DNA of 64,000 nt from Myxococcota bacterium (GTDB taxonomy: Bacteria; Myxococcota_A; UBA9160; UBA4427). The DNA is taken from NCBI GenBank assembly GCA_030748735.1, contig JASMLK010000055.1, positions 1 to 64,000 of the forward strand, in the 5' to 3' direction. Positions 3,720 to 64,000 of this stretch are shown piece by piece (positions within the stretch are counted from its first letter, which is position 1; each line of letters opens with the position of its first letter). Position numbers and translations under genes: made by a program. Under the pieces are notes generated by a model. It ran no database searches. It saw only the letters and a program-made list of their open reading frames with translations, and was not told the origin of the DNA.

Positions 3720-5909
3720 GTGGCGGAAAATGGGAGCACGCAAGCAGGGGGCATGCTGAGGGGCCGCACAGGCACCGTGGCGTGGCTCGCGCTCGTACTC
3801 GTCTTCGCGGTGCCCCTGTGCCGCCGCTCGATCAACCTCTCGGACGAGGGCTACATCCTGCTCCAGGCCTTCGACATGCTCGAAGGCAGGGTGCTCTACC
3901 GCGACATGGATGCCTTCGTTTCGCCGGGCATCTGGTTCCTGCTCGCGGGGCTCTTCAAGCTGGTCGAACCGAGTGTGTTGGCGAGCCGCGCGCTGTCGCT
4001 GGCATCGTTCGTGGCGACCGCGGCGCTCACCTTTCGCATCGTCGACCTCACCACCCGGCGCACCCTCGCATGGCTTTCGACGGGCGTCTTCGTGGTGATG
4101 GCTGTCTGGGCCTTCCCGATCTGGACCTGGACCTTCTATTCGCCGTTCGCGGTGTTGTTCGCGATGTGTGCGCTCGAGCGCTTGCTCGTCTTCTCACGTC
4201 GCGCTCGCACGACCGACCTCGTCTGGCTCGGCGTGTGGCTCGGTCTGGCGATCACCTTCAAGCAGAACTACGGGACCTTCGCGCTGCTCGGTTCGTTGGT
4301 CGCGCTCGGGGTCCTGCGCGTGACCGGTGCGCGCGAGGGTTCGCAAGCGCTGCCCGGGCCTGGCGCTTCGCTCGGCGCCGTGGCGATCGGGGGTGCGGCG
4401 ATCGGAGTGCCGGTGTTCGGCTATCTGATCGCGAATGGCGCGGTGGTGGACGCGTTTCGCAGCCTGGTCGTGCACCCATTCGTCTTCGCGGGGCAGCACG
4501 ATGTCGCGTATCTCGGCTTCGCTTCGCTGTTCGATCCCTTCGTGCTCGATGGCACCGACCGCTTGACCTACGGGGCGAGTTCGCTTTATCGCATCGTGAC
4601 CCCGATCGACGTGCTGCGCGAACTGCGAATCGTCGAGCGCATGCACGTCGGGCTCTACCTGATGCCCCCCGCCCTGTTTGCGATTGCGGCCGTCGTACTG
4701 TGGCGCAAGCGCGCGTCGTTCGATCGCGATCTCTTCGCTGTTGGCTTGATTGCGGGGGCCGTCTTCCTCGGTGTCTTTCCGCGCGCCGACTACAACCATC
4801 TGCTCAACGTCTACCAACCGGTGCTCATCCTCGCGATGTTGGTGCTCGATCGCTGCATGGGAGACCCGGCGATCGCGCGTTGGCTCGGCAAGCGCGGGGT
4901 CCGAGCCGTCGCCGGCTTCGTCGTGGCGAGCTACGTGATCGTGGCGGTCTACTGGTACGCACAGATCGTGATCACGATGGACGCCGAGATCACGCCGCGA
5001 CGTGGCGGGGTGCTCGAGCGGCCTGAAATCGCGCAACGGCTCAATCAGCTGACCGAAGTCGTCTGGGCGAACACGCGTCCGGGCGACCCCCTGCTCTCGG
5101 TCCCCGACCTCGCCATGCTGAACTTCCTCGCCGAACGTTCGATGCCGAGCCCGTACTACAACCTCTACCAGCACCACATTGCGCACGACGGCGGAGCGGC
5201 TGTCGTCGACGGCAGTCGGGCGAATGGCGTGCGCTTCGCGGTCGCGCGCTACAACGGCTTCTTCTCCGATCGGGATCGCCTGCGCGACTATGCGCCGACG
5301 TTGATCGATCATCTCGACCGGGACTTCGCGATCCAGTTCACGGCGGGCGGTGACAACTTCGTCTTCCTTCACCGCCGACCACGTCCGGCGCCGAAACGCG
5401 AAACGGTCCGCTTGCTCGAGCACTGCATGATCGAACCCGAAGTGGATGCGGGGATCGATCATCAGGTGCGCGAACACCTGCTCTTCTCGACCCTCTACCA
5501 GGACGAGGGCGACCACCACGACGAAGCGGAGTGGACGGTCGAAAGTCGTTGCCGCATCCAACTGCCCGACGACCCCACCCTGCTCTTTGGCGTGCGGCCC
5601 GACTACTACCCGCCGCGCGATGCCGAGCCCGGCGCATCCCTCGACTTCGAAGTCTGGGTCGAGCGCTCGGGTTACGCGCCGGAGAAGGTTCTCGACCACC
5701 AGGTCCCGGTCGTGAAGCCGCCCCACCTGCGCCTCATCCGCTACTGGCCCGGCGAACAGCGTGCGGATCTCGGGCGTTTCGCTGGTGAAGAAGTCACGCT
5801 GGTCTTCCGCGGACGGCGTCGCGGACGCGTCGAGCAGCATCCACTGGCGTTTCGCAGCTACTCGACGATGTGGATCGACCCGCGGTTACTGGGTGCGGTG
5901 ACACCGTAG
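3720..5909 (+). CDS. Polytopic membrane protein, glycosyltransferase family 39 / ArnT-like
   Basis: About 729 residues. The N-terminal two thirds is a chain of hydrophobic segments, the first at AWLALVLVFAVPL. The acidic loop after it (LSDEGYILLQAFDMLEGRVLYRDMD) resembles the first periplasmic loop of GT39/PMT-type enzymes, where acidic residues bind the lipid-linked sugar donor. The last 270 residues are soluble and presumably periplasmic. Family members move sugars from polyprenyl phosphates to proteins or lipids outside the inner membrane, but the acceptor here is unknown. The GTG at 3720 is preferred because GGGGGA lies 8 nt upstream; the ATG at 3753 has its purine stretch too close. No polysaccharide gene is adjacent. 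A plain membrane protein of unknown function cannot be excluded. Confidence 0.75.
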   Translation: MAENGSTQAGGMLRGRTGTVAWLALVLVFAVPLCRRSINLSDEGYILLQAFDMLEGRVLYRDMDAFVSPGIWFLLAGLFKLVEPSVLASRALSLASFVATAALTFRIVDLTTRRTLAWLSTGVFVVMAVWAFPIWTWTFYSPFAVLFAMCALERLLVFSRRARTTDLVWLGVWLGLAITFKQNYGTFALLGSLVALGVLRVTGAREGSQALPGPGASLGAVAIGGAAIGVPVFGYLIANGAVVDAFRSLVVHPFVFAGQHDVAYLGFASLFDPFVLDGTDRLTYGASSLYRIVTPIDVLRELRIVERMHVGLYLMPPALFAIAAVVLWRKRASFDRDLFAVGLIAGAVFLGVFPRADYNHLLNVYQPVLILAMLVLDRCMGDPAIARWLGKRGVRAVAGFVVASYVIVAVYWYAQIVITMDAEITPRRGGVLERPEIAQRLNQLTEVVWANTRPGDPLLSVPDLAMLNFLAERSMPSPYYNLYQHHIAHDGGAAVVDGSRANGVRFAVARYNGFFSDRDRLRDYAPTLIDHLDRDFAIQFTAGGDNFVFLHRRPRPAPKRETVRLLEHCMIEPEVDAGIDHQVREHLLFSTLYQDEGDHHDEAEWTVESRCRIQLPDDPTLLFGVRPDYYPPRDAEPGASLDFEVWVERSGYAPEKVLDHQVPVVKPPHLRLIRYWPGEQRADLGRFAGEEVTLVFRGRRRGRVEQHPLAFRSYSTMWIDPRLLGAVTP

Positions 5910-54628: not shown

Positions 54629-54946
54629 TTACGCCGAAGGGATCGGGATCGCCAGGCTCCTGGTCCGGAGCGACGATCGAGGTCGCGCGTTCGAAAGGTG
54701 ATGCGGCGTCTGCACCGGCTTCGGATACAGGCGACAGGGTTCGGGACTGTAGAAGTCGTTCTCGCAGCTGGATACGGGCTCCATCCAGAGACTCTTGATC
54801 ACGTCGGTGAACGCTCTGCAGCGCGCCCCGCGCCGCTCGAACCGTGCGGCCGCCGCCCAAAACGCCTCGGCCACCTGCCGGTAGTTCGATACGTACTCCG
54901 GCGTGGCCAAGGAGCTCACGAAGGGCGCGATCAGCCCGATCTCCAC
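54629..54946 (-). pseudogene. Short ORF opening like an LLM flavin oxidoreductase; probable remnant
   Basis: Starting at GTG 54946 the first 20 residues (EIGLIAPFVSSLATPEYV) match the beginning of F420/flavin-dependent luciferase-like monooxygenases. The following sequence (YRQVAEAFWAAAARFERRG, FTDVIKSLWMEP) does not continue that fold. The total of about 105 residues is far below the family's 300 or more. It is divergent from the MerR gene at 55086. A ten-base C run (G on the coding strand) lies just upstream. I cannot exclude an unrelated small protein. Confidence 0.35.
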
Positions 54947-55005: not shown

Positions 55006-55030
55006 AGTAACAAGTGAGACTCTTCACTTG
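55006..55030. promoter_or_regulatory. Operator dyad upstream of the double-headed MerR gene
   Basis: CAAGTGA, 6 nt, TCACTTG (55011-55030), a perfect 7-bp inverted repeat preceded by AGTAA. The block AGTAACAAGTG, 8 nt, CACTT occurs again at 61977 with identical spacing. It overlaps the first three bases of the TTGACA -35 box at 55028, so binding would affect initiation at the MerR promoter. Confidence 0.75.
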
Positions 55031-55056
55031 ACAGCGCCGGTGCGCTCGCGCAGAAT
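55028..55056 (+). promoter_or_regulatory. Sigma-70-type promoter of the MerR-led operon
   Basis: TTGACA (55028-55033), 17-nt spacer, CAGAAT (55051-55056). AGGAGG at 55069-55074 precedes the ATG at 55086. The -35 box is perfect and shares bases with the operator dyad. Confidence 0.65.
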
Positions 55057-55085
55057 GTCGAGCTGAACAGGAGGCGGAGCACCCC

Positions 55086-55787
55086 ATGGCTGAGCTGCTC
55101 AAGATGGGTGAGCTGGCGGCGCGAACCGGCGTCGAAAAGAGCACCATTCAGCACTATCTGCGAGAGGGGCTGCTGCCGGGCCCCGCGCATCGCCCGCATC
55201 GCAACATGGCCTACTACAGCGCCGACCTCGTCGAGCGGATCGGACTGATCCGCGAGCTTCAGACCCGGCGCAGCCTGTCCCTCGCCCGCATTCGAGACCT
55301 GCTGGCCGACCATCAGAGCCTCGACGCGGTGCGCCGCTGGCTGGATCAACAGGAGCTCAACATCGAGCCGTCCGCTCGCCCTGTCGGTCGCAAGGCGCTC
55401 CGGCAGGAGACGGGGCTCCGGCCCGAGGAGCTCGAGCGTCTCGAGGCGCTCGGCTTCGTGCGACCGCGCAAGCAGGGACGAGGTGTACGCTACTCAGCGA
55501 CCGATTCTGCGACCGTGCGCTCGGTTGGGGCGATGCGCCGCGCCGGCTTGAACGAGGAGAACGGCTTCGAGCTCGAGCACATGGCCATCTATCTCGACTC
55601 CATGCGCCGTTTGCTCGCGGAGGAGCTCGACCTCTTCTCCAGCGTTCTCGGCAAGGCATCGCGGAGCCAGACCATCGCGTTGGCCGAGGCCGGGCTGGAG
55701 GGAACGAGCGCCCTACTCGTCGCGCTGCGCCGGCGAGTGATCATGGATCTGCTCGAGGACGCCGAGGGCCGGGAAGAGATCGAATGA
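55086..55787 (+). CDS. MerR-family regulator with two helix-turn-helix units
   Basis: 233 residues. The first winged helix (about 5-75) is canonical: LKMGELAARTGVEKSTIQHYLREGLLPGP, MAYYSADLVERIGLIRELQ. A second MerR-like unit follows at about 98-150: ALRQETGLRPEELERLEALGFV, then RPRKQGRGVRYSATDSATVR and GAMRRAGL. The C-terminal helices could dimerise. There is no metal-binding cysteine. Its stop overlaps the aldehyde dehydrogenase start (ATGA), so it heads the catabolic operon. A dyad in its promoter and the same dyad before the FAD genes suggest it controls both. Confidence 0.88.
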   Translation: MAELLKMGELAARTGVEKSTIQHYLREGLLPGPAHRPHRNMAYYSADLVERIGLIRELQTRRSLSLARIRDLLADHQSLDAVRRWLDQQELNIEPSARPVGRKALRQETGLRPEELERLEALGFVRPRKQGRGVRYSATDSATVRSVGAMRRAGLNEENGFELEHMAIYLDSMRRLLAEELDLFSSVLGKASRSQTIALAEAGLEGTSALLVALRRRVIMDLLEDAEGREEIE

Positions 55788-57277
55788 GCGCGGCCGAGCG
55801 GACGAGCGAGGCCCATGCACAGGCCGCCAGGGAGATCGGCCTGGAGCGAGCACCGAAGATGTGGATCGACGGCATCTCGACGGGCGCCATGGACGGCGCA
55901 TGCTTCGCCACGTTCGATGCGACGACCGGGGAGGAACTCGCCCAGCTTCCGGCGGCCAGTGAGTCGGACGTCGATGGGGCGGTCCGGGCGGCCCGGCGCG
56001 CATTCGAGCAGACCGACTGGCATCGAAACTCGACGCTGCGTGCGCGAACGCTCCAGAGCCTGGCGCGGCTGGCCAAGCGCGATCGCGACCATATTGCCCT
56101 GCTCGATTGCCTCGAGGTGGGAGCGGTACGCGGCATCGCCCGGCGTCTCGGCGCCCAGGCGCTGGTGCGCAATCTCGAGTACTTCGCGAGCTGGGCGGAC
56201 AAGATCTACGGCGAGGTGGTCCCCGTGCCCTCGGGACGGGTGCTCGACTATGCACGCCGCGAGCCCTATGGCGTCGTGGCGGCGATCACTGCGTGGAACA
56301 CACCCGCCCTCTTCGTCGGCAGCAAACTCGGCCCGGCGCTCGCGGCGGGCAATACAGTGGTGCTCAAGCCTTCGGAGTTCGGCTCGTTGTCGGCGCTGCA
56401 CTTCGCGAAGCTCTGCGCTGAGGCTGAGATTCCGCCCGGCGTCGTGAACATCGTGAGCGGAGGCGCGGCCACCGGCGAGGCGCTGATCCGCCATCCCGAC
56501 GTCGCGAAGATCACCTTTACTGGCGGCACGGGTACCGGCAGGCGAATCCAGGCCGCAGCGGCCGACAACCTCGTCCCCGTACATCTGGAACTCGGTGGCA
56601 AGTCGCCGCACGTCGTGCTTGCCGACGCCGATCTCGACCAGGCCGTGGGCGGGGTAATCGCAGGCGGATTCGGCCTCAGCGGCCAGACCTGCGCAGCTGG
56701 AAGCCGGCTGATCCTGCAACGCGAGATCCACGACGCGTTCCTCGAAAAGCTCAGCGATGCGGTGTCGATGCTCTCGATCGGCGACCCGCTCGACCCCAAG
56801 ACCTTCCTCGGCCCGCTGATCCACGAGCAGCATCTCGAGCGTGTGCTCGGCTACGTGGCTTCCGGAATCGCGGAAGGTGCAGAGCTCGTTGTTGGCGGTA
56901 AGCGCGCCGAGTTCGCAGGGCCCTTCATGCAGGCCACGCTCTTCAGCGGCGTCGAATCGGAAATGCGGATCGCGTGTGAGGAGATCTTCGGCCCCGTGCT
57001 CTCCGTCATGTGCGTCGAGGACGCGGAGCAAGCAGCACGCGTCGCAAACGAGACGCGCTATGGGCTCGGCGCCGGGATCTGGACTCGCGACGTGAAGACA
57101 GCGCTGCGTTTCGCGGAGAGCGTTCGCGCAGGAAACGTCTGGGTCAACCAGTACGGCAGCCTGCCGCACACTGTGCCCTTCGGCGGCTATGGCCATTCCG
57201 GACAGGGACGTGAGGGAGGCCGGCAGGCCCTCGAAGAGTACACACAGATCAAGAACGTGAGCATCGACCTCGGGTGA
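55784..57277 (+). CDS. NAD(P)-dependent aldehyde dehydrogenase
   Basis: 497 residues, a normal length. Catalytic Asn in the AWNTPALF region, NAD-binding FTGGTGTGRRI, general-base Glu in LELGGKSPHVVLADAD, nucleophilic Cys in FGLSGQTCAAGSRL, and EEIFGPVLSVM. C-terminal GNVWVNQYGSLPHTVPFGGYGHSGQGREGG belongs to the betaine/aryl-aldehyde group of class I-like enzymes. It oxidises an aldehyde to the acid in the cytosol, plausibly the product of the following alcohol dehydrogenase. Substrate not readable. Codon use leans to GAG, unlike the housekeeping genes left of 51.5 kb. Confidence 0.95.
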   Translation: MSAAERTSEAHAQAAREIGLERAPKMWIDGISTGAMDGACFATFDATTGEELAQLPAASESDVDGAVRAARRAFEQTDWHRNSTLRARTLQSLARLAKRDRDHIALLDCLEVGAVRGIARRLGAQALVRNLEYFASWADKIYGEVVPVPSGRVLDYARREPYGVVAAITAWNTPALFVGSKLGPALAAGNTVVLKPSEFGSLSALHFAKLCAEAEIPPGVVNIVSGGAATGEALIRHPDVAKITFTGGTGTGRRIQAAAADNLVPVHLELGGKSPHVVLADADLDQAVGGVIAGGFGLSGQTCAAGSRLILQREIHDAFLEKLSDAVSMLSIGDPLDPKTFLGPLIHEQHLERVLGYVASGIAEGAELVVGGKRAEFAGPFMQATLFSGVESEMRIACEEIFGPVLSVMCVEDAEQAARVANETRYGLGAGIWTRDVKTALRFAESVRAGNVWVNQYGSLPHTVPFGGYGHSGQGREGGRQALEEYTQIKNVSIDLG

Positions 57278-57317
57278 CGCACGTGAGAGACGAGAACAGC
57301 GATCGCGACGAGACGGG

Positions 57318-58421
57318 ATGAAGAGTATGCGCGGTGCGATCCTTCGCGACTTCGATGCAAAGCTCGAGATCGTCGACCTCGAGCTCGAAGCGCCCAGAGC
57401 GGGCGAGGTCAAGATCGACGTCGTCGCCAGTGGGCTATGCCGCAGTGACCTCTCCTGTATCAACGGCACCTTGAAGTCGCCGATGCCTGTCGTGCTCGGA
57501 CACGAGGCCGCCGGCATCGTATCGGAGCTCGGCGAGGGCGTGAGCAACCTCGCGGTCGGCGACGCGGTGGTCGTGGCCCTCAGCCCGGCCTGCGGTGACT
57601 GCCTCTTCTGCAACGAAGGGGCACCCAATCGCTGCCTGAAGATGATCCCCGGTATGATCGGTTCCACCATGCTCGATGGCAGCACGCGGCTCAGCCTCGG
57701 CGGCGAGCAGGTCTACCAGCTATGTGGCGTGGCTTCCTTCGCGGAGCAGGCCGTCGTCTGCGCGATGTCCTGTGTGAAGGTGGGCGACACGGTTCCTCTC
57801 GAGCAGGCCTGCCTGCTCGGCTGCGGGGTACTGACGGGCGCGGGCGCAGCGTTCAATACGCCGGAGATCGGTCCGGACGTGTCCGTTGCGGTCATCGGCT
57901 GCGGCGGCGTGGGCCTCGCCGCCATCCAAGGCGCTCGGATCGAGGGGGCCGCCCAGATCATCGCCGTGGATGTCGACCCCGCGAAGCTCGAGCTCGCCAA
58001 GGTGCTCGGCGCGACCCAAACGGTCGACGGCGGCGGCGATGTCCGGAAGGCGATTCGCAAAGCAACTGGCCTCGGCGTGCACGTCTGCATCGAAGCCATC
58101 GGGCACGTGTCCACGATCGAGACCGCGTGGGAGGTGCTCCGTCCCGGTGGCCTCGCCGTGGTCATCGGCATGCCGCGCGCGGGTGAGAAGATCCCGATTC
58201 GAGCGGGGGGGTTGTTCCAGGAGCGGCGCATGGCGGGATGCGTATACGGCGGTGCCGATCCCCATCGCGACATCCCGCGCGTGCTCGAGCATGTGGGCCG
58301 CGGCGAGTTCCAGCTCGATCGAATGATCACCGAGGAGCTGCCGCTCGAACGAGTTCAGGAGGCGATCGACTCGCTCGCGGCCAGTCACGGTGCGAGGCAC
58401 GTCATCGTCCCTCGGAGCTGA
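57318..58421 (+). CDS. Zinc-dependent alcohol dehydrogenase (MDR family)
   Basis: 367 residues. Catalytic zinc ligands: Cys in GLCRSDLS, His in LGHEAAG, and a third Cys in LLGCGVLTG. Structural zinc lobe: CGDCLFCNEGAPNRC, all four cysteines. NAD-binding VAVIGCGGVGLAAIQGARI with IIAVDVDPAKLELAK, where Asp prefers NAD. The pattern matches the class III-like/aryl-alcohol dehydrogenase group (AdhC). It lies 40 bp after the aldehyde dehydrogenase, suggesting an alcohol to aldehyde to acid sequence. ATG 57318 is used; an ATG three codons later is possible. Confidence 0.95.
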   Translation: MKSMRGAILRDFDAKLEIVDLELEAPRAGEVKIDVVASGLCRSDLSCINGTLKSPMPVVLGHEAAGIVSELGEGVSNLAVGDAVVVALSPACGDCLFCNEGAPNRCLKMIPGMIGSTMLDGSTRLSLGGEQVYQLCGVASFAEQAVVCAMSCVKVGDTVPLEQACLLGCGVLTGAGAAFNTPEIGPDVSVAVIGCGGVGLAAIQGARIEGAAQIIAVDVDPAKLELAKVLGATQTVDGGGDVRKAIRKATGLGVHVCIEAIGHVSTIETAWEVLRPGGLAVVIGMPRAGEKIPIRAGGLFQERRMAGCVYGGADPHRDIPRVLEHVGRGEFQLDRMITEELPLERVQEAIDSLAASHGARHVIVPRS

Positions 58422-58484
58422 GCACCTTCCTACCCTACCGATGAACCAATCGAGACCCAATCAAGAGACGGACAGGAGAAGATC

Positions 58485-59537
58485 ATGAGGTTTGGAATGC
58501 TGCACCTCTTCGAGAGCCCAGAGGGCCGTAGTGAAGCACAGATGATCGACGAGCAACTCAGCCTGATGGAGGCCGCGGAGGAGTACGGATTCGATTCCCT
58601 CTGGCCCGCCGAGCACCACTTCACCGAGTACGGCGTCTGTGGATCCCCGGCCCTGAACCTCGCGGCCATCGCGCGAACGACCAGGAAGATCCGCCTCGGC
58701 ACCGGCGTGTGCGTGCTGCCACTCCACAACCCCATCCGGGTGGCGGAGGACTTTGCCATGCTCGACCAGATGTCCGGAGGCCGCGTCGACTTCGGAGTTG
58801 GCCGCGGCTATCAGCCCATCGAGTTCCAGGGCTTCGGCGTCGATCAGACGCGGAGCGCCAAGATCTTCGACGAGAGCCTCGAGATCATCCGGCGCGCCTG
58901 GACCGAAGAGAAGCTGAACTTCGAGGGCGAGTTCTTCCAGTTCAAGGACCTGGAGATTCGACCGCGCCCCCTGCAGGACCCGCACCCCCCGATCTGGATG
59001 GCGGCGCTCTCCCAGCAGACGTTCGAGAAGGCCGGCCGGTTGGGCTTCAACCTGCTGCTCTCACCGGTCTTCGGTGGCTCGCTGCAGGCCGCGCGCGACA
59101 ACATCCAGCGTTATCGACAAGCGCTGGCGGACAACGGCTTCGACCCGGCGAGCCGCCAGGTGGGCGCGCTGACGATGATGTTCGCGGGCAAGTCCCACGA
59201 GGAGGCGCGCTCGCAGTTCGCAGAGCCGGTCATCTGGTACTTCCGCACATTCGGGAAGTTCGTCGCACCGAAGGTCGGCCAGCCCCCGATCCAGGGCTAC
59301 GAGTGGTACACCGACATTCGCGATCTGGCGAGTGTCGTCGAGTGGGAGACGCTCATCGAGCACGGCGCCGTGATCTGCGGCGAGACGCCTTACGTAATCG
59401 AGAGGCTCCAGGAGATGAAGGAGATGACGGGCATAGACCATCTGCTCGGGTGGACCCGACTCGGTGGTCTTTCCGACGACCTCGTCACATCTCACATGGA
59501 GCTCATGCGCGACGAGATCATGCCGGCGCTGCGATGA
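58485..59537 (+). CDS. LLM-class flavin-dependent oxidoreductase (luciferase-like monooxygenase)
   Basis: 350-residue TIM-barrel protein using FMNH2 or F420. Visible: MRFGMLHLFESPEG, YGFDSLWPAEHHF, IRLGTGVCVLPLHNPIRVAEDFAMLDQMSGGRVDFGVGRGY, and PPIWMAALSQQTFEKAGRLG. The AEHHF and GRGY motifs are typical of bacterial-luciferase-like monooxygenases. AGGAGA precedes the ATG. The stop overlaps the next gene (ATGA). In a pathway with acyl-CoA dehydrogenases it may insert oxygen or act as a reductase; substrate unknown. Confidence 0.92.
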   Translation: MRFGMLHLFESPEGRSEAQMIDEQLSLMEAAEEYGFDSLWPAEHHFTEYGVCGSPALNLAAIARTTRKIRLGTGVCVLPLHNPIRVAEDFAMLDQMSGGRVDFGVGRGYQPIEFQGFGVDQTRSAKIFDESLEIIRRAWTEEKLNFEGEFFQFKDLEIRPRPLQDPHPPIWMAALSQQTFEKAGRLGFNLLLSPVFGGSLQAARDNIQRYRQALADNGFDPASRQVGALTMMFAGKSHEEARSQFAEPVIWYFRTFGKFVAPKVGQPPIQGYEWYTDIRDLASVVEWETLIEHGAVICGETPYVIERLQEMKEMTGIDHLLGWTRLGGLSDDLVTSHMELMRDEIMPALR

Positions 59538-60643
59538 TCGACTTCGAGATCGGCGACGAACTCGAGCTCGTGCGAGCCACTGCGCGCGAGTTCGCGGACG
59601 ACCATCTCAGGCCGACGCTCCGGCAACACGAGTCGACGCGCGCGCTCTCGGATGCGACGCGCGCCGCCTTCCGAGACATCGGCTTCGCGACGCTCGAGTG
59701 GCCCGAGTCACTGGGGGGCAGCGGTCTCGGCGGTCTCGCCCGCTTCATCGTGCTTGAGGAGCTTGCGGCGGCCGACCCCGGCGCGACCCTTGCGCTCGAT
59801 CCCCTGGGCCCTGCCCTCTACGCCCTGGTCGAGTGCGGCGGCGAAGCGGCGCTCGAACGCTTCGGCACGCCGCTCGCAGACGGCGAGACCGCCCGTTCCG
59901 TGCTGGTGTGGTGTGGCGAAGGGTGCCGCGCCAAGCTCGAATTCGGCGATGACGCGGTCAGCGGCGCGATCCCCTGGCTGCCCGCCGATGCAGCGGCGCA
60001 ACTCGTGCTGCTCGACGCCGATGGCGCACACGTGGTGAGCGAGGGCTTTACGCTCGAGCCCGCCCGCGGAGCCGGGCTGCGCGCTGCGGGGGCGGCGAGC
60101 GTCACGCTCGACCGGGCCCCAATCGCGGCCAGCTATCCAGGTGGCGAGGCTGCGGCGCGCGCGGCGGCGCGCGGGCGTCTGTACACCGCCGCCATGCTGG
60201 TCGGCATCGCGCGAGAATCGGCGGATTACTCGCGCGCCTACGCACTGGATCGAGTCACCTTCGGCAAGCCCATCGCCCACCATCAGGCGCTGGCCTTTCT
60301 CATCGCCGACATGGCGACGGCGACGGACTCGGCGCGGCTGGCGGGCTGGGACGCCGCGTGGCGGCTCGATTCGGGCCATGGGGCCGAGGAGGCCTGCGCC
60401 ACGGCTTTCATCGAGGCCGCGGAGCAGGCCATGTATGTCACACCCAATGGCGTACAGATCCTGGGTGGCCATGGATTCATGCAGGACCACCCCGTGGAAA
60501 AGATGATGCGCGAGGCACGTGCGCTCTCGCTCCTTTTCGGTGGCGTCGACGCCGCTCGCAACACGGCGATCTCTGAGCTGATCGAGAGCGACGGACCGGT
60601 ACAGCTCACGTGGGAGGCCCCTGATGCGGGTCGAACTGGATGA
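59534..60643 (+). CDS. Acyl-CoA dehydrogenase-like subunit 1 (no catalytic Glu, lacks TEPxxGSD)
   Basis: 369 residues with ACAD fold. Normal N-terminal helices (EFADDHLRPTLRQHE, IGFATLEWPESLGGSGLGGLARFIVLEELAAADPG). The middle beta-domain lacks the TEPxAGSD flavin/substrate motif. The C-terminal domain keeps the cofactor-contact motif RVTFGKPIAHHQALAF and QILGGHGFMQDHPVEKMMREAR. The site of the usual catalytic YEGT reads FGGV. It is therefore probably inactive alone and pairs with the product of the next gene, as in the alpha2beta2 FadE/ChsE pairs of steroid side-chain degradation. Overlaps upstream LLM gene (ATGA) and downstream gene (20 bp). Confidence 0.92.
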   Translation: MIDFEIGDELELVRATAREFADDHLRPTLRQHESTRALSDATRAAFRDIGFATLEWPESLGGSGLGGLARFIVLEELAAADPGATLALDPLGPALYALVECGGEAALERFGTPLADGETARSVLVWCGEGCRAKLEFGDDAVSGAIPWLPADAAAQLVLLDADGAHVVSEGFTLEPARGAGLRAAGAASVTLDRAPIAASYPGGEAAARAAARGRLYTAAMLVGIARESADYSRAYALDRVTFGKPIAHHQALAFLIADMATATDSARLAGWDAAWRLDSGHGAEEACATAFIEAAEQAMYVTPNGVQILGGHGFMQDHPVEKMMREARALSLLFGGVDAARNTAISELIESDGPVQLTWEAPDAGRTG

Positions 60644-61835
60644 AGCCACACGCAGGCGCGTCGAGGGGATCCGGATGCTGGGCCGGGCCCAGGTCCGCCC
60701 GCTCGGTCTCGAGGCCGATCGCCTGGGCCGCCCCATACCCCCGGACCACGAATTCTTCGAGTTGCTCCTGAAGATCGGACAAGGGCGGACCCGTTGGAGC
60801 GGCGAGCAGGATCCCGCTGCGGAACCCGCTGCGAGAGACGAGAGTGACAGGCCCGAGTTGAAGGCGACCATCGGTACCTCCCGCGCGCTGCTGGCGGTCG
60901 CAGAAGAACTCTCGTATTGGGATCGCGGTGTCGCGGTCTCGCTCCCGGGCCCCGGGCTCGGCGAGCCGCCGATCATCGGCATGGGAACGCCGGATCAGAA
61001 GGAGCGCTTCCTCCGCCCCTTCATCGATCCGGGAAAGCCGCGCTGGGGATCCTTCGCAATGACGGAGCCGGGCGCGGGCTCCGATGTCGCCGCGATCCGT
61101 ACGGTGTGTCGCAAGGACGGCGACCACTGGGTTCTGAACGGGGCCAAGTCGTTCGCCGCCAATGCATCGCGCGCCGACTGGATCCTGGTCTGGGCGACGA
61201 TCGACCGGAACCTCGGGCGAGAGGGACATCGCGCCTTCGTTATCGAGCAGGGTACCCCGGGCCTCGGCGACTTCCACGTCGAGAAGAAGATGGGGCTCAA
61301 GGCCTATGAGTCCACCTCATTTACCATGCGCGACTGCCGCGTGCCCGCAGACAGCTTGCTGGGTAGCGACGAGCACTACGCTCGAAAGGCGGGATTCAAG
61401 GGCGCGATGAAGTCCTTCAACTCCACCCGTCCTCTGGTCGCAGCGATGGCGGTCGGCATGGGACGGGCCGCGTTCGACGAGGCGCTTGCTTTCGCCAAGG
61501 AGCAGGATCTGCTGGGAGACGTCCGCGTCCGTGATCGCCTCGAGCGGATTCGCCGTCGGCTGCGCGTAGCACGCCTGCTCTGCTGGCGTGCCGCATGGCT
61601 CGCCGACCACAGCCGGCCGAACATCGTCGAGGCGTCGATGTCCAAGGCGGTGGCCCCGGCCGTCGCGCTCGAGGCCGCTAGCCTGGGGATGGAGTTGCTC
61701 GGAGAGGTGGGTGCGAGAGGCGAACACCTGATCGAAAAGCTCTTTCGCGACGTCAAGGCAATGGACATCGTGGAGGGCACGGGGCAGATCCAGCGCATCG
61801 TCATGGCCCGGCAACTCGTTCAGCTGCCTCGGTAG
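60624..61835 (+). CDS. Acyl-CoA dehydrogenase-like subunit 2 (carries TEPGAGSD and catalytic Glu)
   Basis: 403 residues. The beta-domain has the complete flavin/substrate motif FAMTEPGAGSD and the following WVLNGAKSFAANASRADWILVW. The C-terminus has the catalytic glutamate in VEGTGQIQRIVMARQL. The RxxFGxxIxxxQ cofactor motif is missing: the site reads EQDLLGDVRVRDRLERI. The QxxGGxG motif is degenerate (LLGEVGARGEHL). These are exactly the parts present in subunit 1, implying one FAD site per heterodimer. GGGAGG lies before the ATG, which is inside the end of the previous gene. Confidence 0.93.
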   Translation: MRVELDEATRRRVEGIRMLGRAQVRPLGLEADRLGRPIPPDHEFFELLLKIGQGRTRWSGEQDPAAEPAARDESDRPELKATIGTSRALLAVAEELSYWDRGVAVSLPGPGLGEPPIIGMGTPDQKERFLRPFIDPGKPRWGSFAMTEPGAGSDVAAIRTVCRKDGDHWVLNGAKSFAANASRADWILVWATIDRNLGREGHRAFVIEQGTPGLGDFHVEKKMGLKAYESTSFTMRDCRVPADSLLGSDEHYARKAGFKGAMKSFNSTRPLVAAMAVGMGRAAFDEALAFAKEQDLLGDVRVRDRLERIRRRLRVARLLCWRAAWLADHSRPNIVEASMSKAVAPAVALEAASLGMELLGEVGARGEHLIEKLFRDVKAMDIVEGTGQIQRIVMARQLVQLPR

Positions 61836-61847
61836 GGGCTTGGCATG

Positions 61848-61865
61848 ACGTCCGTACCAGGACGT
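61848..61865. other. Small hairpin after the acyl-CoA dehydrogenase operon
   Basis: ACGTCC, 6 nt, GGACGT, 13 bp after the stop of the second dehydrogenase. No T-run, so a weak candidate terminator or a binding site. Confidence 0.3.
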
Positions 61866-61976
61866 TGAGCCAGAACGCAGCTTGAATGCCTCCTTCCATG
61901 GGGTCGAAGCGGCCCCCTCCCAGCCACTTTTTCTAGGCCGGTATGACGGCGATCATACGTCTTCCCGATTGTGCAG

Positions 61977-62001
61977 AGTAACAAGTGCTACATCGCACTT
62001 T
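61977..62001. promoter_or_regulatory. Second copy of the MerR-type operator, before the FAD oxidoreductase pair
   Basis: AGTAACAAGTG (61977-61987), 8 nt, CACTT (61996-62000), identical in sequence and spacing to the block at 55006. The dyad CAAGTGC, 6 nt, GCACTTT is 6 of 7 paired. It ends 22 bp before the ATG at 62024, so binding could block transcription or the leader. Confidence 0.7.
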
Positions 62002-62023: not shown

Positions 62024-63688
62024 ATGGCCAGGAACTTCGACGTAATCGTGGTGGGGGCTGGAATCAATGGACTCGCCTGCGGGGCCTACCTCGCCAAGGC
62101 CGGCCTCGAGGTAGCCGTCGTCGAGGCGCGGAACGAATGCGGACCGTTCGCGCTGACGGAGGAGATTTTCGGCGGGGGCGTTCCCATCGACACCCACGCG
62201 GGTGTCTGCTTCGTCACGATGAGCCCTGCACTGGGAGAGCTGGAACTCGATCGCTTCGGACTCGACCTGATCCTGCCCAGGGTGCCGACCGGAACCGTCT
62301 CCAAAGACGGCACCAACGTGCTCTACTACACCGATCTCGACCGAACCTGTGCCGAAATCGCCCGCTTTTCGGAGCGCGATGCCAAAGCCTATCGGAGATT
62401 GCGCGAGAGCGTAATGAAGAACGCGGTCGAGATGCTCGAACGGGGCGTCTTCAGCGCACCGTCGGCTGAGGGGCTCGAGTACCTCTGGAGCCTGGGAAAA
62501 CTGGTCGGATTCTCTCCTGAGGATTTCCGCACCATGAATGGTTTCGAGCTACTCGACCTGCTCTTCGAGAACGAAAAGGTCAAGTGTTCCCTGCTCGGCC
62601 AGGCCGCCATTGGAATCTTCGGGGATCCCGCGGAAAAGGGCGAGGGATCTCTAATGACCGTGCTTGGCCAGACCAGCTCCTTCGGTGTTCCCAGAGGGGG
62701 AATGCACAATCTGGTGCATGCCCTGGTTCGCTGCTTTCGACACTACGGCGGAACGCTCCTGCTGAATGCGCCAGTCGAGCGAGTGGAGTTCGAGGGGGGA
62801 CGTCCGAGCCTGGTTCATCTCGCCGAACACTCCCCAATCCCCGAGAAGACGCTTCGCTCACGCCAGGCCACGGTGATTCACGTCAGCCCACCTGTCGCGT
62901 TGCAGATCCTCGATTCCGAGGAACTCGAGCGACATGATCCCAATCTCTTGCGCAAAATGAAGGACTGGGACATGACCGGCCATTGCGCCTTCACTTCCTA
63001 CGTTCTCCTCAAGGGCGCTGCACAGTGGAGCTCGCGGACCTGGAACCCGGACATCCAAGAGTGCGCATTTCCGTTGCGCGCATGGGACTCGTGGGATCAC
63101 GCCAAGAGCTCATTCCAAACGGCGAAGAACGAGGAGATCTTCGGCGTGGCAGGTGATGTGGGCGAGATCTATCACCTGAGTTCCGTCGACCCATCGCGGG
63201 TTCCGGCCGACGGCAGGACAGCGCTCGTCTACGAGGTCGAATACCCGGTGAACATGCGCCGCTACGGGGGACTCTCGGCCTGGGACGATCGGGAGATCAC
63301 CGATCGGCTGCACGAGAGTCATCTCCAGGATCTACGCGATATGCTCGACGACTTCGACGCGGAGCTCATCGACTCCACCTATTTCACCCCGATCGACAAT
63401 TGGCGTCGCAACCCATCCGCAATTCTCGGGCATGAGCTCGGTGGAGATGTGAGCGGTCCGCAGTGGTACGAGGGTCGCATGCCCAATCGATCTTCGATCG
63501 AAGGGCTGTACTTCACCCAGGGCGTCTGGCCGTGTTCGCTCACCCATCTCGGCAGCGCTTACGTAACGGCATGCGCGATCGCGGATGACCTCGGCGTCCG
63601 CGATCAAGCGTGGTGGAAGAATCGCCCCATGCAGCGGTACATGGAGTTGATGCGCGAAGGCAGCATGAACGTGGAGGTTACACCATGA
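62024..63688 (+). CDS. CrtI-like FAD-dependent oxidoreductase 1 (phytoene desaturase family)
   Basis: 554 residues. The N-terminal dinucleotide-binding motif is VIVVGAGINGLACGAYLAKAGLEVAVVEAR. FGVPRGGMHNLVHALVRCFRHYGG is the CrtI-family middle signature. The C-terminal FAD loop is GLYFTQGVWPCSLTHLGSAYVTA. Family members desaturate or isomerise hydrophobic polyenes and related lipids, but many have unknown substrates. No phytoene synthase or other carotenoid gene is in the window. GGAGG at 62011 fixes the start at ATG 62024. The stop overlaps the next gene (ATGA). Confidence 0.92.
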   Translation: MARNFDVIVVGAGINGLACGAYLAKAGLEVAVVEARNECGPFALTEEIFGGGVPIDTHAGVCFVTMSPALGELELDRFGLDLILPRVPTGTVSKDGTNVLYYTDLDRTCAEIARFSERDAKAYRRLRESVMKNAVEMLERGVFSAPSAEGLEYLWSLGKLVGFSPEDFRTMNGFELLDLLFENEKVKCSLLGQAAIGIFGDPAEKGEGSLMTVLGQTSSFGVPRGGMHNLVHALVRCFRHYGGTLLLNAPVERVEFEGGRPSLVHLAEHSPIPEKTLRSRQATVIHVSPPVALQILDSEELERHDPNLLRKMKDWDMTGHCAFTSYVLLKGAAQWSSRTWNPDIQECAFPLRAWDSWDHAKSSFQTAKNEEIFGVAGDVGEIYHLSSVDPSRVPADGRTALVYEVEYPVNMRRYGGLSAWDDREITDRLHESHLQDLRDMLDDFDAELIDSTYFTPIDNWRRNPSAILGHELGGDVSGPQWYEGRMPNRSSIEGLYFTQGVWPCSLTHLGSAYVTACAIADDLGVRDQAWWKNRPMQRYMELMREGSMNVEVTP

Positions 63689-64000
63689 GAACCGACTACG
63701 ACGTCATCGTCATCGGAGCCGGCCCCAATGGGCTCACGGCGGCGGCCTATCTCGCCGCTGGCGGCAAGCGCGTGGCCGTAGTGGAGCGCTACGTCGAGAC
63801 CGGAGGCGGACTGGTCACGCAAGAGATCAGCGGATTTCGTATGAATCACCACGCAACGTACATGATGATGGGTGATCTCATGCCACCCGTCGCAGACTTC
63901 GATCTCCGCAGTCGAGGTGTCGATTTCATCACGCCGGAGATCCAGGCGGCATTCCTGTTCGAAAATAAACAGAGCCTGATCATCCATGCTGATTCGCGGA
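63685..64000 (+). CDS. CrtI-like FAD-dependent oxidoreductase 2, 3' end outside window
   Basis: The first 105 residues of a second FAD/NAD(P)-binding oxidoreductase. Glycine motif VIVIGAGPNGLTAAAYLAAGGKRVAVVERY, then ETGGGLVTQEISGFRMNHHA, typical for CrtI-like enzymes. It overlaps the previous gene by ATGA, so the two are translated together and may form a heteromer or act in sequence. The reading frame is open to the right edge. Confidence 0.9.
   Translation, partial: MRTDYDVIVIGAGPNGLTAAAYLAAGGKRVAVVERYVETGGGLVTQEISGFRMNHHATYMMMGDLMPPVADFDLRSRGVDFITPEIQAAFLFENKQSLIIHADSR

Follow-up and report, generated by a model that had tools for sequence, protein, structure and literature searches.

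A shared inverted repeat as the candidate operator of a MerR-type regulator, its own oxidation operon and the adjoining FAD oxidoreductase pair

MerR-type regulators of the FtsR-like group are expected to carry two winged HTH domains per chain. The closest precedent for the locus analyzed here is the actinobacterial MerR-type FtsR/Rv1828: FtsR is dimeric and has a 25-bp imperfect inverted repeat as its site (PMC6683498), and a review gives fatty acids as the ligand of Rv1828 (PMC9909328). The textbook twist mechanism of the MerR family requires a dyad within a 19-20-bp spacer (PMC9909328), and in myxobacteria the MerR-type proteins CarA/CarH repress by blocking the -35 region through operators made up of several elements (PMC9304148). 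Our literature search found no usable description of a MerR regulator acting on operons for acyl-CoA dehydrogenases.

Here we analyze a MerR-led operon and the genes that follow it in a 64-kb stretch of DNA (the window), which constitutes the first part of a 120,777-base contig in a draft genome of 5.08 Mb that is 95% complete. The MerR gene stands first in its operon, several of whose genes overlap at start and stop codons (Table 1), and a pair of FAD oxidoreductase genes follows it on the same strand. The initial annotation had proposed that the regulator controls itself and a distal operon; the FAD pair stands as the candidate target, but "distal" has to be refined, given that the pair is the very next transcription unit, after a gap of 188 nt. 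The remnant of a luciferase-like (LLM) gene lies divergent from the MerR gene, and an intact counterpart of this remnant is found in genome G081 (L057:11410-12270), again divergent from MerR and with the operator in between.

Table 1. Coordinates of the features of the MerR locus, in positions of the window
Feature	Coordinates	Strand	Remarks
Divergent LLM gene remnant	54701..54946	-	Two collinear pieces, 52% identity each, middle missing
Operator 1 (candidate)	55006..55028	+	AGT-AACA-AGT-GAG-ACT-CTTC-ACT, all four triplets; the genome's only exact dyad; abuts -35 box
Sigma-70-type promoter of MerR-led operon	55028..55056	+	TTGACA-17-CAGAAT, 10/12 consensus matches; consensus match only
MerR-type regulator, 233 aa	55086..55787	+	MerR_1; winged HTH units predicted at residues ~4-75 and ~102-152
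Aldehyde dehydrogenase (ALDH)	55784..57277	+	PF00171; start overlaps MerR stop
Zinc-type alcohol dehydrogenase (ADH)	57318..58421	+	PF08240/PF00107; adjoins MerR also in G035, G072, G081
LLM monooxygenase	58485..59537	+	PF00296; kept in relatives' operons
Acyl-CoA dehydrogenase (ACAD) subunit 1	59534..60643	+	PF02771/PF00441
Acyl-CoA dehydrogenase (ACAD) subunit 2	60624..61835	+	PF02770/PF00441
Operator 2 (candidate)	61977..61999	+	AGT-AACA-AGT-GCT-ACA-TCGC-ACT, 3/4 triplets; counterpart in frame before G014 FAD pair
FAD oxidoreductase 1	62024..63688	+	CrtO/CrtI-like; phylum sample: relative at E<=1e-100 only in G014 (79%)
FAD oxidoreductase 2	63685..64000	+	CrtO/CrtI-like; continues past window to contig position 65316

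The sequence AGTAACAAGTG-N8-CACTT occurs in exact copies at 55006-55029 and 61977-62000, with the same spacing and with an inverted repeat at each site, as the initial annotation had reported. Its further remark of having noticed no other copy also holds: the window contains no third copy at up to 3 mismatches, and shuffled windows yielded a mean of 0.06 matches, with two matches in none of 100 shuffles. In the genome-wide scan that had been put forward as a test, random copies were absent and the exact core ACAAGTG-N8-CACTT was found only at the two window sites. The relaxed form AAGTR-N8-YACTT has three genomic occurrences, the third of them falling within the coding part of an LLM gene on contig C43, and a four-triplet dyad (defined below) at up to one mismatch returns the two window sites and one coding-sequence match. 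The near matches checked outside the two sites are all coding, corresponding to the C43 LLM gene, a small MoaD/ThiS-like frame at C102:32862 and an oxidoreductase on C53. The first site had been described as overlapping a TTGACA box before the MerR gene, and the overlap is real and small: operator 1 abuts the box (55028-55033), which is followed by a 17-nt spacer to CAGAAT, with the dyad ending at 55028 and the motif as initially annotated extending to 55029. Operator 2, in which the third triplet is degenerate, is located 24 nt upstream of the FAD oxidoreductase ATG, and no sigma-70 promoter was recognized there in a scan with spacers of up to 20 nt.

The regulator itself belongs to the MerR superfamily (PF13411, E 3.1e-22, 78.9 bits against a cut-off of 21.6). 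AlphaFold2, with three sequences and at moderate confidence (pLDDT 74), predicts winged HTH units at residues 4-75 and 102-152; in a domain-domain profile comparison, one unit matches the other in register (P=1.8e-4), and direct BLASTP of HTH domain 1 against HTH domain 2 gave no match. Because two winged HTH domains per monomer are predicted, a dimer could read four triplets, and its four HTHs would then match the four triplets of the operator. The top PDB matches of the protein are MerR proteins, SCO5550 of Streptomyces coelicolor first (PDB 2DG6). This MerR protein, atypical in the shape of its dimer, is the best structural match (Foldseek E 2.5e-4) and the second-best PDB sequence match, but identity in the structural alignment is 22% and the global superposition is poor (TM about 0.3).

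Residues 19-219 of the window MerR match the FtsR model of NCBIfam (NF050798) with 39.2 bits, well short of its curated cut-off of 150, and assignment to this equivalog was therefore rejected. The window dyad, as an inverted repeat of 23-25 bp, may resemble the FtsR operator in layout; FtsR differs in its site, AACCCTAAAGTAAAGGTTGAGGGTA, in its target, ftsZ, and in being an activator. With CarA/CarH the proposed system would have in common repression through multi-element operators at the -35 region. CarH, however, reads 11-bp direct repeats, whereas the window site is palindromic with four triplets, and a Pfam scan of the window MerR found no match to a B12-binding domain; membership of the CarA/CarH group was discarded on both counts. 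The classical MerR, CueR, SoxR and CadR proteins share the N-terminal winged HTH, but their dyads lie within a 19-20-bp spacer, and the window MerR has a second predicted HTH after the first. With operator 1 abutting the -35 box of a 17-bp-spacer promoter and no 19-20-bp-spacer promoter at operator 2, the classical activator class was likewise set aside.

Close orthologues of the MerR protein (57-61% identity) are rare, being present in G035, G072 and G081 among 91 class genomes; G035 (Meg19_46_Bin_116) and G072 (ARS66) are both named Deltaproteobacteria MAGs. Searching genome contigs with the single window protein gave no match, a four-row alignment recovered only G072 and G035, and on plasmids there were only distant relatives (~30%). 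The gene order is MerR-ADH-LLM-ACAD-ACAD in G035 and G081, and MerR-ADH-LLM in G072. In G035, the first acyl-CoA dehydrogenase frame is disrupted by a short tandem duplication (L046, G035:C3, ~4450-4490), possibly an assembly error. These orthologous MerR operons, which belong to three other families, retain the dyad upstream of MerR: G072 has AGTATAAAGTACGACTTATTACT, with all four triplets, and G081 has AGTGAAAAGTGTCGCTTTTCACT, with 11/12 bases, while the looser match AGTGTAACTTTATACTTTGCACT is found in G035. Conservation of the motif before MerR, which the initial annotation had set as a test, is thus observed in G072 and G081 and more weakly in G035. In our reading of the sequences, a -35-like hexamer at the right half of the dyad is separated by 17 nt from a -10-like hexamer in 4/4 genomes, the hexamers of the orthologues being weak matches, poorer than those of the window.

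The counterpart test for the second site, conservation before the FAD pair, yielded a variant in the only relative found to have the pair. Upstream of the G014 pair we find AGTGATAGGTAGTACATATCACT, in frame and with two mismatches (p=0.002, dyad test). When the upstream regions of both FAD pairs were aligned globally, the sites did not pair because their distances to the start codon differ; in an ungapped scan, the operator is the best block, and we place the weight of evidence on the dyad test because a few percent of shuffles also reach the score of that scan. G014 has no close orthologue of the window MerR, so the site before its FAD pair would be read by another protein, possibly a MerR relative (38%) encoded ~5 kb from the pair. 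This G014 MerR protein and that of G031 are sisters (support 100/100; 55% identity), and the G031 gene is divergent from an LLM-ACAD-ACAD operon with an AGGT-type variant in between. The AGGT inner-triplet variant is common to both genomes, and it looks from these sequences as if regulator and operator may change together in G014 and G031, which are two genomes only.

The sites identified above, together with those of distant homologues (35-38%), fall into a common register, a 23-bp dyad of the form AGT-N4-AGT-N3-ACT-N4-ACT. A model based on the 8-nt-spaced dyad alone was rejected, leaving G035 and G014 unexplained; the four-triplet frame accounts better for all these sites. At up to 2 mismatches, the dyad is present in 14/33 MerR upstream regions, each with p<=0.003 in shuffles, 7 of the 14 having helped to define it. 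The spacing 4-3-4 ranks first of 1000 combinations, matching 14 regions where the next-best spacing matches 7, and it leads also when restricted to regions outside the motif definition (7 against 4). The remaining 19/33 upstream regions have no dyad, and some of these MerR genes may lie inside operons. Across 17 whole genomes there are 4 exact dyads, all beside a MerR gene of the subfamily; the one in G223 comes directly after the MerR gene and before an apparent lipoprotein gene. G010 and G378 each contain a single AAGTR-N8-YACTT in the entire genome, and in both it immediately precedes MerR.

A stricter form of the dyad occurs in 27/379 phylum genomes, against 4 for a reversed control pattern, and in 17 of the 27 a MerR match, three of them weak, lies within ~2 kb. 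These 17 comprise 10 genomes with a match within 1.5 kb at E<1e-20, 3 with weaker E-values and 4 placed within ~2 kb by coordinates, 4 of these genomes having helped to define the pattern. Because the motif follows the MerR subfamily phylum-wide, it would belong with the MerR protein rather than with the metabolic genes. An AGTGTCA-type subset of the phylum matches may represent sites of other regulators. At one locus (L082, G315:C260), three dyad matches occur within 3.7 kb, one before MerR and two before neighboring lipoprotein-like genes, which suggests the same self-plus-neighbor pattern in another lineage. Separately, a longer palindrome, AGTGTCAAGTGTCACTTGACACT, recurs with variants in several phylum genomes (L138-L142, L147-L151) and, because some of its copies are not near MerR genes, may be the site of a separate regulator; other copies are near them. 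A different palindrome, AAGGTG-N8-CACCTT, is found upstream of a more distant MerR homologue (L065, G199:C118).

Taken together, we consider it likely that both window sites are operators of the MerR protein encoded at 55086, which would repress its own operon, control the FAD pair and be released by a metabolite. Autoregulation combined with control of the FAD pair, as initially suggested, is the best reading because random genomic copies are absent, the motif is retained in relatives and it is tied to the MerR subfamily. In the proposed mechanism, a MerR dimer would bring four DNA-reading heads to the 23-bp dyad of AGT/ACT triplets. At 55006, the dimer would overlie the edge of the -35 box and silence the genes for ALDH, ADH, LLM monooxygenase and both acyl-CoA dehydrogenases; at 61977, its binding would bring the FAD oxidoreductase pair under control; and it would leave the DNA in response to a metabolite of the pathway, possibly an acyl-CoA or similar compound. 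MerR-family proteins usually work by the classical twist (PMC9909328), realigning the -35 and -10 boxes around a dyad placed in their 19-20-bp spacer, but operator 1 lies upstream of its 17-nt-spacer promoter and operator 2 has no recognizable promoter around it, making a twist very improbable here. Repression is favored because the window promoter comes close to consensus, operator 1 reaches its -35 box and operator positions vary among relatives: they may abut -35, overlap -10 or be close to the start codon, a spread compatible with a steric repressor. In a second alternative, MerR at both sites would be a class-II-like activator that makes contact with RNA polymerase immediately upstream of -35. 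Operator 1 would be centered near -46 if transcription starts ~7 nt past CAGAAT, the weak boxes of the orthologues would suit an activator and the site through which FtsR activates ftsZ lies upstream of the promoter (PMC6683498). Set against this are the near-consensus window promoter with its 17-nt spacer and the operators of distant relatives, which overlap the -10 region or come after it, and we regard activation as possible but doubtful.

Palindromic operators are common to many regulator families, and in G072 a TetR-like gene is divergent from MerR; a different regulator, for instance of the TetR family, might thus bind both sites with MerR as a mere neighbor. The motif, however, tracks the MerR subfamily phylum-wide while the neighbors vary, and neither the window nor G035 or G081 shows a TetR gene next to the motif, leaving this explanation improbable. 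It is harder still to credit that the resemblance is due to chance, or that the repeat is a terminator hairpin belonging to the divergent LLM remnant. Read on the minus strand, the first repeat does score as a weak terminator-like hairpin, but the exact pairing of the sites, their uniqueness genome-wide and their conservation beside MerR in other families speak against both, and the genome-wide scans led us to reject chance.

Returning to repression by MerR, we tentatively entertain, at somewhat less than even odds, its extension to a phylum-wide subfamily of two-headed MerR proteins, each head taking one AGT/ACT triplet, that act as steric repressors distinct from the twist mechanism. The four-triplet dyad, tied to a subfamily with two predicted heads, would constitute a refinement of the earlier reading of this locus. 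An apparently uncharacterized MerR subfamily thereby gains a concrete candidate operator, through which its regulons may become readable from sequence in many uncultured genomes, and the predicted geometry, with four heads on four triplets, departs from the textbook MerR mechanism. For the organism, an alcohol, aldehyde and acyl-CoA oxidation operon and a rare FAD oxidoreductase pair would form one putative regulon, offering a clue to a joint pathway.
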